A stretch of 64,000 nucleotides of DNA from Alligator mississippiensis (lineage: Eukaryota; Chordata; Crocodylia; Alligatoridae): positions 49,165,319 to 49,229,318 of the forward strand of contig NC_081831.1 of the NCBI RefSeq assembly GCF_030867095.1. The letters are read 5' to 3'. The notes under the pieces were generated by a model. The model was not told the origin of the DNA, did not search any database, and saw only the letters and a program-made list of their open reading frames with translations. Positions 5,499 to 49,169 of the stretch are shown piece by piece. How positions within the stretch are numbered: position 1 is the first letter of the stretch; the number at the start of each line of letters is the position of its first letter. The position numbers and the translations under genes are program-made.

Positions 5499-6518
5499 AC
5501 AGAGTTTAGATGGAAAAAGAAGCCTACTATCAATTCCACCTTTTGTTTTAATTTCAGGGTATGGAAAGGGCAGGGAAAATGTTAAAGCTCATGATTTGCA
5601 GGATTTTTTTGTCTGTGCAGAATAACAGTCTAGTTTCTAGAGTTTTGAATTCATGGGAGAGCATGCTTTCAGGCTGGAAGAGGGGTTCACTGTGTAATTA
5701 ATTTGGTATTGACAAAATAGAATTTGAAGATAGCTGCCAGAACTATGTATTAATCTAGATTCCATACCCCAAAGTCACTGACAGGTAAATGAACAGGTGG
5801 ACAGAGAATATCACGTAGCCAACAAGAAGAGCAGGTCAGTTTGCCCTCTCAGCCATGGTCACAACTATTCTTATCAAAATAGAAAATTGAAACAGTAAAG
5901 TATATGTTCTCTGGGTAGAAAGCATAAGAGATATTGAAGTGAAACATGAGAAATGGATGAAATAACCTAGTTCATCCCCTATTCTAAAATGTCTCTGGGA
6001 TGAGAAGATGAGAAATGTTGTTTTCATTAATGCTTTGTTCAGTTTGCTGTTAAATATGTTGTTACATGGCTAACAGGTCTCAGCGTCAGGAATTTTTTCT
6101 TGCTTCTTATCTTAAATATTCACAATTGTCTTGATTTTCATCTTATCACTGTTAGTTAAATGACCATGCACTGTACTGTGCAAAAAAAATTGCTCTCATT
6201 TTTTAAGTTTACCTCAGATATTTGTAGATTCCTCTATTTTGGCACCCCAAGCACATTAATAACCCATTTCTGTTGCAACCATTTTATTTTACATATCACT
6301 CAGTGGTTACAGATATCACTCAACGGTTAATTTAAACTTTCCTATTCTAATGTAATAGTTTCCTGTTACTGAAAAGTGATATATTTGTGCATTTTAAGTA
6401 CAGCAAAGGGGTGATTGCTTCCACTTTAAGGTAAAAGAGAGTTCTTCATTTTGGAGTATTGTCTCAACCATTACCTTTGAAAGTTTTACTCTGCTGCAAT
6501 AAAACATGAAAGAGAACA
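5499..6518. other. Noncoding sequence, nothing recognised
   Basis: Unique-looking AT-rich DNA. It contains no repeat termini I can identify and no coding frame worth reporting. Confidence 0.5.
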
Positions 6519-6531
6519 TCTTAAAGAGGCT

Positions 6532-6813
6532 TTTATTACACCAACTCAAATAGTTGGAAAAATTCTTTTTTTCAGGCTTTCAGGTACAAATACCCTTTGT
6601 CAGGCTGAGGAAGCATCTGCAGTTGGCAGATGCTTCCTCAGTCTGATGAAGTGTATTTGTACCTGAAAACTTCGGGGGGAGGGGGGGGGGGAGAGAGAAA
6701 GAAAAGAAAAGAATGTTTCCAAATATTTGAGTTGGTCTAATAAAAGATATAAGATTTACCCAAAAAACCCTGTCTGCCTATGTCCTTAGACCAACATGGC
6801 TACAACCTATACC
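6532..6813 (+). mobile_element. Short Penelope-like fold-back (paired terminal repeats only)
   Basis: A 282-bp insertion is bounded by a perfect 13-bp target duplication, TCTTAAAGAGGCT at 6519-6531 and 6814-6826. The left part is the reverse complement of the right part, with a near-perfect hairpin centre around 6605-6640 ('GAAGCATCTGC' facing 'GCAGATGCTTC'). The right arm carries the same blocks as the 41-kb PLE: 'GTTGGTCTAATAAAAGATA', then 'GTCTGCCTATGTCC'. The left arm is 5'-shortened. Nothing of the coding region remains, so this is a pair of head-to-head terminal repeats. A hammerhead-like core lies in the right arm at 6643-6668. Confidence 0.8.
6643..6668 (+). ncRNA. Hammerhead-ribozyme-like core in PLE terminal repeat (6.6 kb)
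   Basis: The catalytic-core signature CTGATGA (6643-6649) is followed by a short hairpin that would be stem II: GTGTA (6651-6655), loop TTTG, then TACCT, with one mismatch and a G-U pair. GAAA follows at 6665-6668. This order is the conserved core of a hammerhead self-cleaving RNA. Such motifs are known in terminal repeats of Penelope-like elements. The expected very short stem III after GAAA is degraded here ('ACTTCGG'), so activity is doubtful. Confidence 0.6.
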
Positions 6814-6882
6814 TCTTAAAGAGGCTCACATTTGAAGCCTTCTACTGTGTCAAACTGTCAATTAGTTCCTTTGGTTTTGACT

Positions 6883-13159: not shown

Positions 13160-15725
13160 TATTTGTCAGTGAGCAATATACATCAACCCTCATCAAGACA
13201 GAATCCAAGGTTGAGGAAGTAGAAGGATTGTGGGTTAGGCTACATGGGGGGTAAGGAGAAAGGGATTTGGTGGTAGGGGTCTGCTACAGACCCCCACACC
13301 AAGGGGAAGAAATAGATGCGGGGCTCCTGAGGCAACTCTTGGAGACCATAAAAGCTAAAGAGGCAGTAGTCATGGGGGACCTAAACTACCTGGACATCTG
13401 CTGGGAGACGCAGACAGCACGGTCCCATCGCTCACGCAGGTTTCTAACCTGTATACAGGACCCCCACCTGACACAGGAGGTGCATGGTCCCACTAGGGGG
13501 AATGCCATACTGGATCTGGTATTGGCAAAGGGGATGACATGATAGGGGACCTCCAGATCGGTAGCCATTTGGGAGACAGTGATCACCTAATAATAGAATT
13601 CAACATAAGACGTTGAGTGGGTAAGGTAACTAGTAGGGTGAAAGTGCTAGACTTTAGGAAAGCTGATCTCAATGCACTCAGGCAATTAGTCAAGGACGCA
13701 CTGCAGAGTAGGAGTTTTGAAGGGATGGGAGCCCAAGAAGGGTGGCTGTGCCTTAAGGAAATGATCCTTCGGGCACAAAGTAAGATGATCCCCGAGCGAG
13801 GCAAAAAAGGGAAAGGGGCCAGGAGGCTTCCATGGCTGACCAGAGAAATCCAGGGCAGCCTAAGGGCCAAAAGGGGAGCACATAAAAAGTGGAAACAGGG
13901 TGAGATCACTAAAGATGAATATACCTCCTCTGCTCGTGCTTGTAGGGAGGCAGTTAGGCGGGCCAAAGCTACCATGGAGCTGAGGATGGCAACCCAAGTA
14001 AAAGACAACAAGAAATTGTTTTTTAGATATATTGGGAGTAAAAGGAAGGCCCAGGGAGGAATAGGACCACTGCTAAATGGGCAGAAACAATTGGTGACAG
14101 ACAGGGGGGACAAGGCTGAACTCCTCAACGAGTTCTTTGCCTCAGTGTTCCTAAGAGAGGGGCACGACAAGTCTCTCACTGGGGTTGGTGAGAGGCAGCA
14201 GCAAGGTGCCAGACTTCCATGCGTAGATCCTGAGGTGGTGCGGAGTCATTTGGAAGAACTGGATGCCTTTAAATCAGCAGGCCCGGATGGGCACCATCCG
14301 AGGGTGCTGAAGGCACTGGCCAACATCATTGCAGAGCCACTGGCGGGAATATTCGAACGCTCGTGGCACACGGGCCAAGTCCTGGAGGACTGGAAAAGGG
14401 CTAACGTGGTCCCCATTTTCAAAAAGGGGAGGAAGGAGGACCCAGGCAACTATAGGCCAGTCAATCTCACCTCCATCCTTGGTAAAGTCTTTGAAAAAAT
14501 TATCAAGGCTCACATTTGTGAGAGCCTGGCAGGGCAAATTATGCTGATGGGAAACCAGCACGGGTTTGTGGCGGGCAGATTGTGCCTGACCAATCTAGTC
14601 TCTTTCTATGACCAGGTTACGAAACGCCTGGACACAGGAGGAGGGGTGGATGTCGTATACTTAGACTTCAGGAAGGCCTTCGATACGGTATCCCACCCCA
14701 TACTGGTGAACAAGCTAAGAGGCTGTGATGTGGATGACTACACAGTCCGGTGGGTGACGAATTGGCTAGAGGGTCGCACCCAAAGAGTAGTGGTGGATGG
14801 GTCGGTCTCAACCTGGAAGGGTGTGGGCAGTGGGGTCCCGCAGGGCTCGGTCCTTGGACAGATACTTTTTAATGTCTTCATCAGTGACTTGGACGAGGGA
14901 GTCAAATGTACTCTGTCCAAGTTTGCAGATGACACAAAGCTATGGGGAGAAGTGGACACGCTGGAGGGCAGGGAACAGCTGCAGGCAGACCTGGATAGGT
15001 TGGACAAGTGGGCAGAAAATAACAGGATGCAGTTCAACAAGGAGAAATGCAAAGTGCTGCACCTAGGGAGGAAAAATGTCCAGCACATCTACAGCCTAGG
15101 GAATGACCTTCTGGGTGGCACAGAGGTGGAAAGGGATCTTGGAGTTCTAGTGGACTCCAAGATGAATATGAGTCGGCAGTGTGACGAAGCCATCAGAAAA
15201 GCCAATGGCACTTTATCGTGCATCAGCAGATGCATGACGAATAGGTCCAGGGAGGTGATACTTCCCCTCTATAGGGCGCTGGTCAGACCGCAGTTGGAGT
15301 ACTGCGTGCAATTCTGGGCGCCACACTTCAAGAAGGATGCGGATAACCTGGAGAGGGTCCAGAGAAGGGCAACTCATATGGTCAAGGGCCTGAAGACCAA
15401 GCCCTACGAGGAGAGACTAGAGAAACTGGACCTTTTCAGCCTCCGCTAGAGAAGGTTGAGAGGCAACCTTGTGGCTGCCTATAAGTTCATCACGGGGGCA
15501 CAGAAGGGAATTGGTGAGTATTTATTCACCAAGGCGCCCCCGGGGGTTACAAGAAATAATGGCCACAAGCTAGCAGAGAGCAGATTTAGATTGGGCATTA
15601 GGAAGAACTTCTTCACAGTTCGAGTGGCCAAGGTCTGGAATGGGCTCCCAAGGGAGGTGGTGCTCTCCCCTACCCTGGGGGTCTTCAAGAGGAGGTTAGA
15701 TGAGCATCTATCTGGGGTCATCTAG
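13160..15725 (+). pseudogene. CR1 ORF2 (endonuclease C-terminal part plus reverse transcriptase), nearly open
   Basis: The endonuclease part shows 'VVGVCYRPP' and 'VVMGDLNY' (13267-13542). The 610-codon open stretch from 13617 holds the linker ('VKVLDFRKADLNALRQL') and the reverse transcriptase with 'NYRPVNLTSILGKVFEKI', 'HGFVAGR', 'YLDFRKAFDTVSH', 'GVPQGSVLG' and an intact catalytic FADD at 14922-14933. The C-terminal thumb region ends 'RRLDEHLSGVI' at 15725. I count four lesions: TAA at 13252-13254, a one-base frameshift near 13530, TGA at 13614-13616 and TAG at 15447-15449; the frame continues beyond each. The N-terminal half of the endonuclease and ORF1 are missing, so it cannot act autonomously. 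Confidence 0.93.
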
Positions 15726-40800: not shown

Positions 40801-41161
40801 GCTGCCCACTGAACAACCCCGATGTAAGTTAGAATTCCCTTTATCCTACAATCTTCCAGCCAGTTTTGAAAATGTCAGGCTCAATAACCTTATGTTTTGA
40901 AAAGCTTACCTTAAAATCACTTCTGCCTTTTGAGAATAATAGCCAATGATTCTAAATTTGTGTCTAAAGAATTTGGCCCTATTTGATTTATACACCTCCA
41001 TTTCTGTAGAAACAAATTCTGCAGTTTTTTAAGGTAAAATTCCTATTGAATCAATACAGGGGTGTAGGTTGTAGCCGTGTTGGTCTAAGGACATAGGCAG
41101 ACAAGGTTCTTTGGGTGAATCTGATATCTTTTATTAGACCAACTTAAATAGCTGGAAAACA

Positions 41162-41205
41162 ATTATTAAGCAAGCTTTCGGGTTCAAAAACCCTTTGTCA
41201 GGCTA
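41162..41205 (-). ncRNA. Antisense hammerhead-like core in left PLE arm, one core position changed
   Basis: On the minus strand the left arm reads CTGACAA, a perfect 5-bp hairpin GGGTT-TTTG-AACCC, then GAAAGC and an AGC-UU-GCU mini-hairpin like the minimal stem III of PLE hammerheads. CTGACAA departs from the CTGANGA consensus at the invariant G, so this arm should not cleave. Confidence 0.55.
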
Positions 41206-41394
41206 AGGAAGTTTCAGCAGTTGGTGTGTGCTCTTCCTGGATGGAATGAAAAGTAAAGAAACCAGAGGCTGGTCTGGTATGCATACAAGACAGGTATTCA
41301 GTGAAAATATAGATTGAGGAGTCAATGGGTGAGAAATAGGCTGGGTGCGGGGGGAAGAGAGAGAAGGGGGATGAATAGTGGAGAGATACCTGTG

Positions 41395-42018
41395 GAGCCA
41401 GAACCTTCTCTTGAACCTGTACGGAAAATCTTCAGACAATTGCAACCCATACTAGAAAGAGACCCTATTCTTAAAAAAATCTTCCCAGAGCCACCCATCC
41501 TACCCTTCAAACAAGCACCAAACCTCGTTAACCTCATCACCAAAAGCAAACTTCCTCAAGCCCAGAACACACCGAAAGGATCCAGACCATGCCATGACAA
41601 GAAATGCAAAACCTGCCAACACATCTCCACCAGCCCCACAATTACTACACCCCACAACAGAGCCACCAACATCCCTGGATCTTACAGCCGCACCTCCAGA
41701 AATGTAATATATCTGATCCAATGCACCAAATGCCCTGATGGAAAATACGTAGGAGAGACCAAACAACAACTGCGCACCAGAATGAACGCACACCAGAAAT
41801 CTAATAAAGACAGAAATACCTAATTACCTGTGGGGGCACATGTCTCACAAGAAAACCACTCTCTCTCCAATTTCTCAGTCCTGATCCTCAAAGGAAACTT
41901 ACAAAACACTTCCCAGAGACGAGCCTATGAACTCCACTTCATCAACCTCCTGGATACTAAAAATCATGGACTAAATATAGACATTGAATTTATGACACAT
42001 TATAACCTGCCTGACATC
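41395..42018 (+). pseudogene. PLE GIY-YIG endonuclease domain, one in-frame stop
   Basis: This is the C-terminal part of the Penelope polyprotein, which nicks target DNA for insertion. It starts with the linker that normally follows the reverse transcriptase ('PFKQAPNLVNLITKSKLPQ'), then the cysteine cluster 'CHDKKCKTCQH', and then the GIY-YIG fold: 'VIYLIQCTKC' and 'KYVGETKQQLRTRMNAHQ'. A TAA at 41821-41823 interrupts, and the same frame continues with 'HSLSNFSVLILKG', the catalytic-glutamate helix 'RRAYELHFINLL' and 'HGLNIDIEF', ending at 42018. Only this single stop breaks about 208 codons. The upstream start at 41314 lies in the terminal repeat and is probably not native. Confidence 0.9.
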
Positions 42019-42230
42019 TGACTCCCCAGGTATCTCTCCACTATTCATCCCCCTTCTCGCTCTTTCCCCCCCCCCTCCCCTCCCCTGCCCAGCCTGTCTC
42101 TCACCCATTGACTTCTCAATCTACATTTTCACTGACTACCTGTCTTGTATGCATACCAGACCAGCCTCTGGCTTCTTTACTTTTCATTCCATCCAGGAAG
42201 AGCACTCACCAACTGCAGAAACTTCCTCAG

Positions 42231-42262
42231 CGTGATGAAGGGTTTTTGAACCTGAAAGCTTC
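42231..42262 (+). ncRNA. Hammerhead-like core in right PLE arm (42.2 kb)
   Basis: GTGATGA (42232-42238; CTGATGA consensus with the first C changed) is followed by a stem-loop GGGTT-TTTG-AACCT, closed by a G-U pair, and by GAAA at 42254-42257 and GCTT. The order and spacing match the hammerhead core. The change in the first core base would be expected to weaken or abolish cleavage. Confidence 0.6.
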
Positions 42263-42349
42263 CTTAATAATTGTTTTCCAACTATTTAAGTTGGTCTAAT
42301 AAAAGATATCAGATTCACCCAAAGAACCTTGTCTGCCTATTGAATCAAT

Positions 42350-48552: not shown

Positions 48553-48669
48553 GTCTAGGAAGGAAGCAGATACAGACTAAGCTAAATGCCAGGTCAAATA
48601 ATGACTTTTATTTAAACCCATTATGCAAATGAAAATAACAGAAGAGCAAAATTATCAACAAAAGCCTGG

Positions 48670-48945
48670 ACCACAACAACCTCACTCCCTCAGAGAGAAA
48701 AGCCATCCAGCCCCAAAGATCCAACAACAAAATAGTAACCAAACCAGCAGACAAAGGTGAAGCTATACAGTCATCCTCAACCATCAAGCCTACATCAACC
48801 AAGCCAAAAAACAACTCTGACAGCAAATACTATAAAGAACTTGGGAAGGACCCCACACCAGCATTCACTTTGGAATTGGAAAATATTATCAAATCATTCT
48901 CACAGGAACTTGTTGTGCTCCCAAAGATTCACAAACAAGATATCT
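48670..48945 (+). pseudogene. PLE polyprotein remnant, N-terminal part to start of reverse transcriptase
   Basis: Reading the plus strand gives 'NLTPSERKAIQ', then 'NNKIVTKPADKGEAIQSSS' (the conserved KPADKG block preceding the PLE reverse transcriptase), then 'SKYYKELGKDPTPAF' and 'LVVLPKIHKQD', which matches the LPKIHK motif that opens the reverse-transcriptase fold. The frame is open over about 90 codons. It stops because a CR1 3' tail inserted immediately after the motif. About half of the region between 'DPTPAF' and 'LPKIHK' appears deleted. It is inactive. Confidence 0.75.
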
Positions 48946-49169
48946 CTTGTAGACTTGTTGTTATGTCTAAGGGTAGCAAAGCACTGGAACAGGTTGCCCA
49001 GAGACATTGTGGAATCTCCATCCTTGGAGGTTTTTAAGATCCAGCTAGATGAACCTTTGCCTGGGATGGTATCATTGGGGATGGTCCTGCTTTGAGAAGG
49101 GGGTTGGACTAGATGACCTCCTGAAGTCCCTTCCAACCCTAATTTTCTATAATTCTATGATTCTATTAC
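48946..49169 (+). mobile_element. CR1 LINE 3' tail inside the PLE
   Basis: The end of CR1 ORF2 ('KALEQVAQRHCGISILGGF') is followed by the 3' UTR 'GGGTTGGACTAGATGACCTC' and 'AAGTCCCTTCCAACCCTA', with 'TATGATTC' octamers at the end. About 220 bp remain. Confidence 0.9.

Follow-up and report, generated by a model that had tools for sequence, protein, structure and literature searches.

A decayed minimal type I hammerhead-like motif at the 3′ end of alligator Penelope-like elements

Introduction

Does a short hairpin flanked by hammerhead-like core boxes, lying in one arm of a repeat insertion of Alligator mississippiensis, reflect a selected RNA structure, and, if so, is that structure a ribozyme? 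The question is raised by a 64,000-nucleotide stretch of the genome (contig NC_081831.1, positions 49,165,319 to 49,229,318 of the forward strand; hereafter, the window), in which the host of the motif is the 3′ end of a Penelope-like element (PLE). Minimal type I hammerheads without helix III occur in PLEs and may cut as dimers (PMC7761336, PMC6155905); their role in these elements is called unknown in a 2020 review (PMC7761336). The analysis below leads us to regard the motif as very probably a decayed minimal type I hammerhead that lies within the pseudo-LTR (3′ untranslated region) of a PLE with an endonuclease-like frame.

Results

The motif belongs to an insertion at 41 kb that has a head-to-head arrangement, with an inverted arm (41056-41402), a truncated reading frame and a right arm that runs up to 42338, and with ATTGAATCAAT at both flanks. 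An insertion at 6.6 kb is also head-to-head and has TCTTAAAGAGGC at both flanks. The parts of the two insertions are:

41045-41055, no strand: left target site duplication ATTGAATCAAT, the same 11 bases as at 42339-42349
41056-41402, minus strand: left arm in inverted orientation (copy C), comprising the PLE 3′ end and its tail; core CTGACAA, stem GGGTT/AACCC, GAAAGCTT
41403-42021, plus strand: downstream part of the PLE frame, GIY-YIG-like, cut short on its 5′ side so that the telomerase-like reverse transcriptase is not reached, with its TGA end at 42019-42021
42017-42338, plus strand: 3′ untranslated region and right arm (copy D), without tail, delimited by blastn and nhmmer
42339-42349, no strand: right target site duplication ATTGAATCAAT
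6519-6530, no strand: target site duplication TCTTAAAGAGGC to the left of the second insertion, 12 bases
6531-6632, minus strand: left arm (copy B); stem GGGTA/TACCT, core CTGACAA
6633-6813, plus strand: right arm (copy A), with GAAAACTT, core CTGATGA and stem GTGTA/TACCT, one pair of which is broken
6814-6825, no strand: right target site duplication TCTTAAAGAGGC

Copy C is 89% identical to the right arm by blastn, and nhmmer recovers it with an E-value of 1.9e-124 from a profile that contains copy C itself. Counted from the start of stem II, copy D ends at 99 nt and copy C at 138 nt, while copy B ends early, at 65. The ATTGAATCAAT duplication starts with ATT on both strands and the second duplication, TCTTAAAGAGGC, does not; ATT is the motif preferred for cutting by PAc of Anolis (PMC11167929). 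The PLE frame is broken by an in-frame stop codon (41821-41823); a frameshift near 41821 was also considered, and rejected when the frame check returned the in-frame stop. The piece before this stop scores 21.2 bits against Pfam GIY-YIG, where the cut-off is 22.6 (E 0.00036), and the frame matches two A. mississippiensis proteins with 72% and 88% identity over 98% and 60% of the query, respectively. An A. mississippiensis protein annotated as MORN repeat-containing protein 2 isoform X1 (P0002) holds PLE endonuclease sequence (88%, 104 residues), being either an exonised PLE or an annotation error.

Several other features of the window were recorded alongside. The junction of the 6.6-kb arms (6601-6645) is a near-perfect hairpin with weak matches to Rfam microRNA families; a microRNA reading of the matches over 6500-6830 was rejected, as all of them lie below the gathering score, and we attribute them to the hairpin at the head-to-head junction. 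Copy A carries a G- and A-rich insert of ~30 nt (about 6673-6702) directly after GAAAACTT, the expected place of the ribozyme cut. A frame at 48639-49037, for which a Pfam search gave no match, in our judgement resembles the N-terminal part of a PLE reverse transcriptase, and a 610-codon open frame at 13617-15449, whose reverse transcriptase domain scores 99.8 bits against Pfam RVT_1, is presumably that of a CR1-like LINE.

In the right arm of the 41-kb insertion, the motif was read as listed below, using hammerhead numbering that we take to run from stem I through C3-U4-G5-A6-N7-G8-A9, the extra A, G10.1 to C11.1 and G12-A13-A14-A15.1 to GCUU:

42229-42231, plus strand: stem I, 5′ strand AGC (position 2.1 is 42231); the corresponding bases pair in other copies
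42232-42238, plus strand: hammerhead core box 1, GTGATGA, with C3 changed to G, by reading of the sequence
42239, plus strand: extra A that separates A9 from G10.1, present in 35 of 36 distinct copies of one subfamily and in 36 of 37 of the other
42240-42253, plus strand: stem II and loop, GGGTT (42240-42244), TTTG (42245-42248) and AACCT (42249-42253)
42254-42257, plus strand: core box 2, GAAA
42258-42261, plus strand: GCTT, which with the preceding A makes the palindrome AGCT; proposed dimeric helix III, with the predicted cut after 42261
42262-42265, plus strand: stem I, 3′ strand, which reads CCTT here but GCTT in the majority of subfamily copies

The motif is thus present where it had been predicted, at 42228-42275 of the plus strand, and it exceeds chance. 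Its 27-base string occurs once in the window at up to three mismatches, with 0 occurrences expected, and a scan for core, stem II and GAAA finds three places (42232 on the plus strand, 41201 and 6603 on the minus strand) against a null mean of 0.27 and a null maximum of 2, with a core pattern, [CG]TGAN[GA]A, that had been loosened after the copies had been seen. Each of the three lies in an arm of a PLE insertion. The same scan of the window with the strict core CTGANGA finds none (null 0.08). As for the hammerhead-like core claimed for this arm, an RNA structure in a PLE arm is borne out, but the loss of C3 (GTGATGA, not CTGATGA) had been overlooked.

This loss bears on the state of the copy. 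We do not expect the 42-kb copy to cut, because C3 is G and the stem I pair 1.1/2.1 is C/C; C3G alone abolishes cleavage of the Anolis PLE hammerhead (PMC11167929). The copy is a relic, almost certainly a dead ribozyme. Its TG at positions 7-8 is harmless, since position 7 may be any base, and the core box CTGANGA, absent from this copy, is found in its subfamily. Damage is not confined to copy D: both left arms (C and B) read CTGACAA and have lost G8, the 6.6-kb right arm (A) has one stem II pair broken (GTGTA/TACCT), and none of the four copies in the window has core, stem II and stem I all intact. In a context of ~170 nt, the stem II pair probability is 0.27-0.36 for copy C and 0 to 0.01 for copies A, B and D. 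That the 42-kb copy is nevertheless a working ribozyme, processing RNA of this locus, is exceedingly improbable in our estimate: its stem II and GAAAGCTT are intact, as such a ribozyme would need, but it combines the C3 change that eliminates Anolis PLE cleavage (PMC11167929) with the C/C mismatch and a stem II that hardly forms in its local context, and the two arms cannot form a sense dimer, the other arm being antisense in any one transcript.

The case for a selected structure had first been made from the two insertions of the window. The 6.6-kb left arm, said to carry GGGTA/TACC, does read GGGTA/TACCT (6582-6595, minus strand). The left arm of the 41-kb insertion (minus strand, around 41160-41213) has the same GGGTT/AACC stem as the right arm, so that the arms of one insertion are not independent witnesses. 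Between the two insertions, one of the five stem II pairs is changed on both sides, with 10 fixed differences in the 68 columns where each insertion's arms agree; simulation gives at least one compensated pair of five by chance in 4.8% of cases at 15% divergence and in 8.6% at 20%. The compensated change is therefore real, yet the original prediction overstated its strength in calling it much stronger evidence than a single motif, as it amounts to one pair with a chance of 5 to 9%. Covariation within the window is a hint, not proof.

Genome-wide, the pattern CTGANNAAGGGTNTTTGNACCYGAAAGC gave 5,597 matches, and the reversed pattern 0. Its open pair was other than T-A in 12 of the ~100 matches listed (seven G-T, two A-T, one G-C and two mismatched). 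A more open stem II pattern, fixing only G10.1, C11.1 and a non-G second base, gave 261 genome matches and 0 in the control; stems among the 100 of these 261 matches that were listed include GAATG/CATTC, GTAGG/CCTAC, GTAAG/CTTAC and GTGAG/CTCAC. Seven subfamily representatives, hand-chosen by us, pair at 27 of 28 places, and only 2 of 5040 permutations are as good.

For a broader sample we aligned at most eight random motifs per class, giving an alignment (A1) of 37 of 84 motifs, 36 of them distinct; most of its rows were sampled with the core required, and core conservation in it is partly by construction. In A1, 84.9% of cells are paired (61.9% after shuffling), 80 cells carry two-sided changes (27.7 after shuffling) and the covariation score is 0.715 (0.301 after shuffling), each value being reached by 0 of 500 shuffles. 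When partners are slid by 1-3 columns, at most 28 two-sided cells and at most 48.1% paired cells are left. Two further measures in A1 do not differ from shuffles: the number of pairs with a two-sided change (8 against 8.2; reached by 433 of 500) and that of further pair types (21 against 20.7; reached by 280 of 500). Stem II is paired in 97.8% of its cells, with two-sided changes in four of five pairs. Stem I is paired in 68.8%, with two-sided changes in all four pairs and its outermost counted pair formed in 12 of 36 rows. At the same place, three subfamily groups have the stem I sequences AGC/GCT, GCAT/ATGC and GAC/GTC; in the two subfamilies of the window stem I has just 2-3 bp, the outer pairs being mostly unpaired. 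The two-sided changes are few independent events at the level of subfamilies, inherited by many rows.

These comparisons leave a next to negligible probability that chance resemblance, together with the common descent of repeats, explains the motif with no selected structure at all. Such an explanation could point to the single compensated pair that the window offers (chance 0.05 to 0.09) and to the two of five A1 measures that are not above shuffles, but it is contradicted by several subfamilies that differ in the sequences of stems I and II with pairing kept, and by the failure of the slid-partner controls.

Individual copies behave differently from subfamilies, in that single changed bases are rarely compensated, also in the 48-row main cluster of listed matches. 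When 3′ arms of the matches listed were shuffled within length classes (2000 shuffles), the length-14 class had 72 of 112 cells paired against a null of 57.5, exceeding all 2000 shuffles, and the length-16 class 80 of 104, reached by 67 of 2000; no difference was seen in the length-15 class (23 of 28 cells; null 23.0). Of 87 length-14 rows picked because the 5′ base of pair 3 is not G, just 1 has a standard pair there, and 29 of the 100 rows so listed are one string, a single base off the main stem. Rare compensation is as expected of neutrally decaying copies and is no refutation of selection on the source elements. The two outcomes that the original prediction had named in advance are thus both seen, on different levels: covariation across genome copies is found, in that subfamilies differ in the sequences of stems I and II yet retain the pairing, and uncompensated variation is found among copies (pair 3, 1 of 87), where decay is expected and it does not count as refutation. 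Judged by these alignments, an RNA structure that is real and kept across PLE subfamilies is well supported at the level of the source elements.

Structure models gave a mixed picture. RNAalifold, with no structure supplied, recovers stem II and two stem I pairs, and adds one pair, foreign to a hammerhead, that joins the C of GCTT to a G of the core. When the window was searched with a covariance model built on 13 motifs, all from other subfamilies, copy C came first (16.3 bits) and copy D second (15.3 bits), with modest and rough E-values of 0.038 and 0.073, respectively, and an unrelated place third (14.1 bits); a sequence-only model from the same 13 rows places C 5th (4.5 bits) and D 16th (3.3 bits). 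Copy A is 11th (10.0 bits) in the structure model versus 2nd (9.2 bits) in the sequence-only model, and copy B is in neither list for the window. Rfam gave no match of any family over the whole window at the gathering threshold, and its hammerhead families gave no match to the four copies at E-values up to 10.

The state of the core was followed in two samples of 36 and 37 copies (73 distinct 64-mers out of 85 extracted), chosen by similarity to the query in a search that did not require the core; the DNA searches scored the best 40 candidates each, that is, the copies most like the query. In the 36 distinct copies of the 41-kb subfamily, C3 is kept in 34, U4, G5, A6 and A9 in 36 each, and G8 in 26 (A in 8); in the second box, 28 copies keep G12 (7 have A), and all 36 keep A13 and A14. 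In these two query-biased samples, 16 of 36 and 3 of 37 distinct copies, respectively, show no damage to core, stem II or GAAA. An extra A follows A9 in nearly all alligator copies examined, which we count against the hammerhead reading. In the 6.6-kb subfamily, positions 7-8 read CA in 37, TG in 33, CG in 8, AG in 8 and others in 14 of the 100 matches listed out of 201, so that CA, TG or CG make up 78 of the 100 listed; positions 11.1/12 are mostly CG, TG or CA. Both variable places are CpG sites, and from their decay states we infer the source sequences: the source elements most likely had CTGACGA and CCCGAAA, a canonical core with a G-C closing pair. Amplification of the 6.6-kb subfamily with an already dead G8A core (A at G8 in 31 of 37) was rejected when the pattern with open positions revealed the query bias.

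Further variants of the element were met in the same searches. Loci L092, L098 and L100 belong to a subfamily with core CTGAAGA and stem GGGTG/TACCT, whose loop-closing pair is G-T, and L084, L086, L093, L104, L105, L108 and L111 are PLE copies with a shorter 3′ untranslated region containing CCCAG repeats. A pile-up of 5′ ends at profile position 125 is not a true end and reflects the subfamily with the shorter, CCCAG-rich untranslated region. One contig match (L001) was a bacterial chromosome without the motif and was dropped, and a search of viral contigs gave nothing usable.

With four open bases after GAAA, the genome gave 4,101 matches, and the reversed-pattern control 0; inspected by eye, 8 of the ~100 matches listed were other than GCTT. 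On these matches, GCTT after GAAA is a property of the family and not imposed by the search pattern. Stem I starts directly after GAAAGCTT in three subfamily groups, which is why we place the predicted cut there. A cut after the downstream GTTGGTC was rejected, as no stem I pairing is seen there by eye, while pairing lies directly after GAAAGCTT in several subfamilies.

These readings suggest how the source elements may have worked. Their RNA would combine a short stem I with a core, most likely CUGACGA, the extra A, a stem II closed by G10.1-C11.1, GAAA and GCUU, which would leave no room for a helix III of its own within one RNA. As AGCU is self-complementary and a helix III loop is lacking, the natural reading is a 4-bp helix III to which two RNAs contribute: these RNAs, or two units in tandem, would pair via the palindrome A-G-C-U, and each of them, going by published PLE hammerheads and by the start of stem I, would be cut after GAAAGCUU. 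Cutting would probably serve to trim tandem or read-through transcripts.

The insertion ends tell how the template RNA was used. Thirty loci, taken in genome order from the CTGANNAAGGGTNTTTGNACCYGAAAGC matches (a pattern that ends two bases into GCTT), gave 44 arm hits: the ends of 29 fall in the no-tail range, those of 14 in the tail range and that of one elsewhere; L084 and L085 are the same insertion, counted twice among the 44, and without the doubled locus the figures are 28, 13 and 1 of 42. Both main ranges lie downstream of the motif (43 of 44 hits), and none of the 44 PLE arms ends at the predicted cut. Since no arm ends there, cleavage at this site did not make the 3′ ends examined, and the template RNA was uncut at the site.

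The arms themselves are arranged with some regularity. Of 14 pairs of neighbouring arms, 12 are head-to-head (11 of 13 once the doubled locus is removed), and both arms are of the same subfamily in all 17 pairs in which both were typed. Among 31 head-to-head pairs (L002-L112), 20 join a tailed to an untailed arm, three are untailed on both sides, none is tailed on both sides and eight have other ends. Under random pairing, the probability of no two-tailed pair is 0.0003 for the 23 fully typed pairs and 0.00005 for all 31; L098 and L100 are possibly local duplicates, and with one of them dropped P is 0.00014. In L035, one arm is tailed and the other ends one position short of the cut-off, so that a laxer cut-off makes this pair two-tailed and P for at most one two-tailed pair 0.001. 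It is conceivable, if improbable, that two sister RNAs of one source, joined by the AGCU palindrome, were reverse-transcribed from the two cut DNA ends, with only one of them able to start at the distal (tail) site; a single RNA copied twice fits the head-to-head tail data equally well. Were the sister RNAs real, the dimeric ribozyme and the head-to-head insertions would be two sides of one process.

The position of the ends also bears on whether the hairpin resembles a hammerhead in form only and is instead a site, in DNA or RNA, that the PLE protein recognises, for instance in endonuclease or template binding. Covariation cannot separate a catalytic from a binding hairpin, insertion in vitro is independent of the hammerhead (PMC11167929), and all but one of the 44 arm hits (42 distinct, 30 loci) have their end in either of two ranges past the motif, all of which such a site would accommodate. 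We nonetheless rate it as very unlikely: the conserved unpaired bases, in a search without a core requirement, are those of the hammerhead core, stem I begins at the expected hammerhead cut, the Anolis motif is cut on addition of protein and its core mutants are dead, and the PAc RNA that is needed is the first 172 nt of the frame, a 5′ truncation to +20 being still active (PMC11167929).

Discussion

A decayed PLE hammerhead thus remains our preferred reading, and what began as a hint from two copies becomes a genome-wide covariation case, with thousands of matches, for a crocodilian-type PLE hammerhead. The genome copies show the course of its decay in core, stem II and GAAA, and the genome offers many near-intact copies, insertion ends which indicate a template that extends past the cut site, and a marked rule for tailed arms. 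Among the papers listed for alligator hammerheads, turtle Penelope hammerheads and crocodilian Penelope retrotransposons, we found none on a hammerhead of this family.

A hammerhead of this kind in a PLE is already known, a fact that the original prediction had missed, and the alligator family is a further member. The minimal type I PLE hammerheads (Cervera and de la Pena 2014; Lunse, Weinberg and Breaker 2017), as far as partial accounts of them go, are alike in their place in the pseudo-LTR, type I order, lack of helix III, dimer palindrome and many dispersed copies, and within those accounts we found no difference of kind.

Retrozymes of amphibians and other metazoans bear type I hammerheads, and those of amphibians resemble the proposed alligator RNA in their weak helix III and dimer-dependent cutting (PMC7229834). 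Retrozymes are, however, short tandem repeats without a reading frame, whereas the alligator element is a PLE with an endonuclease-like frame; in place of head-to-tail repeats without coding capacity, we found a coding frame and neighbours that lie head-to-head.

An inverted arrangement is described for a Penelope element of Adineta vaga with inverted pseudo-LTRs, which has head-to-head arms and a tail on one inverted arm, as in the alligator (PMC3846280). Target duplications are 8-10 bp there and 11-12 in the alligator, and the word hammerhead occurs 0 times in that text (PMC3846280).

The fullest comparison is with Poseidon PAc of Anolis carolinensis, in which the hammerhead likewise lies ~100 nt before the starts of reverse transcription and an optional tail of 30-40 bp is present (PMC11167929). 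The PAc frame opens at stem II, and the start sites of reverse transcription lie 111-118 nt inside it, whereas the alligator motif lies ~210 nt past the stop of the upstream frame, with no ATG at stem II; PAc is described as tandem, whereas neighbouring alligator arms are mostly head-to-head. C3 and G8 are essential for cutting by the PAc hammerhead, and insertion in vitro is independent of its cleavage (PMC11167929). The uncut template of the alligator element is in line with this insertion of PAc in vitro without the hammerhead.
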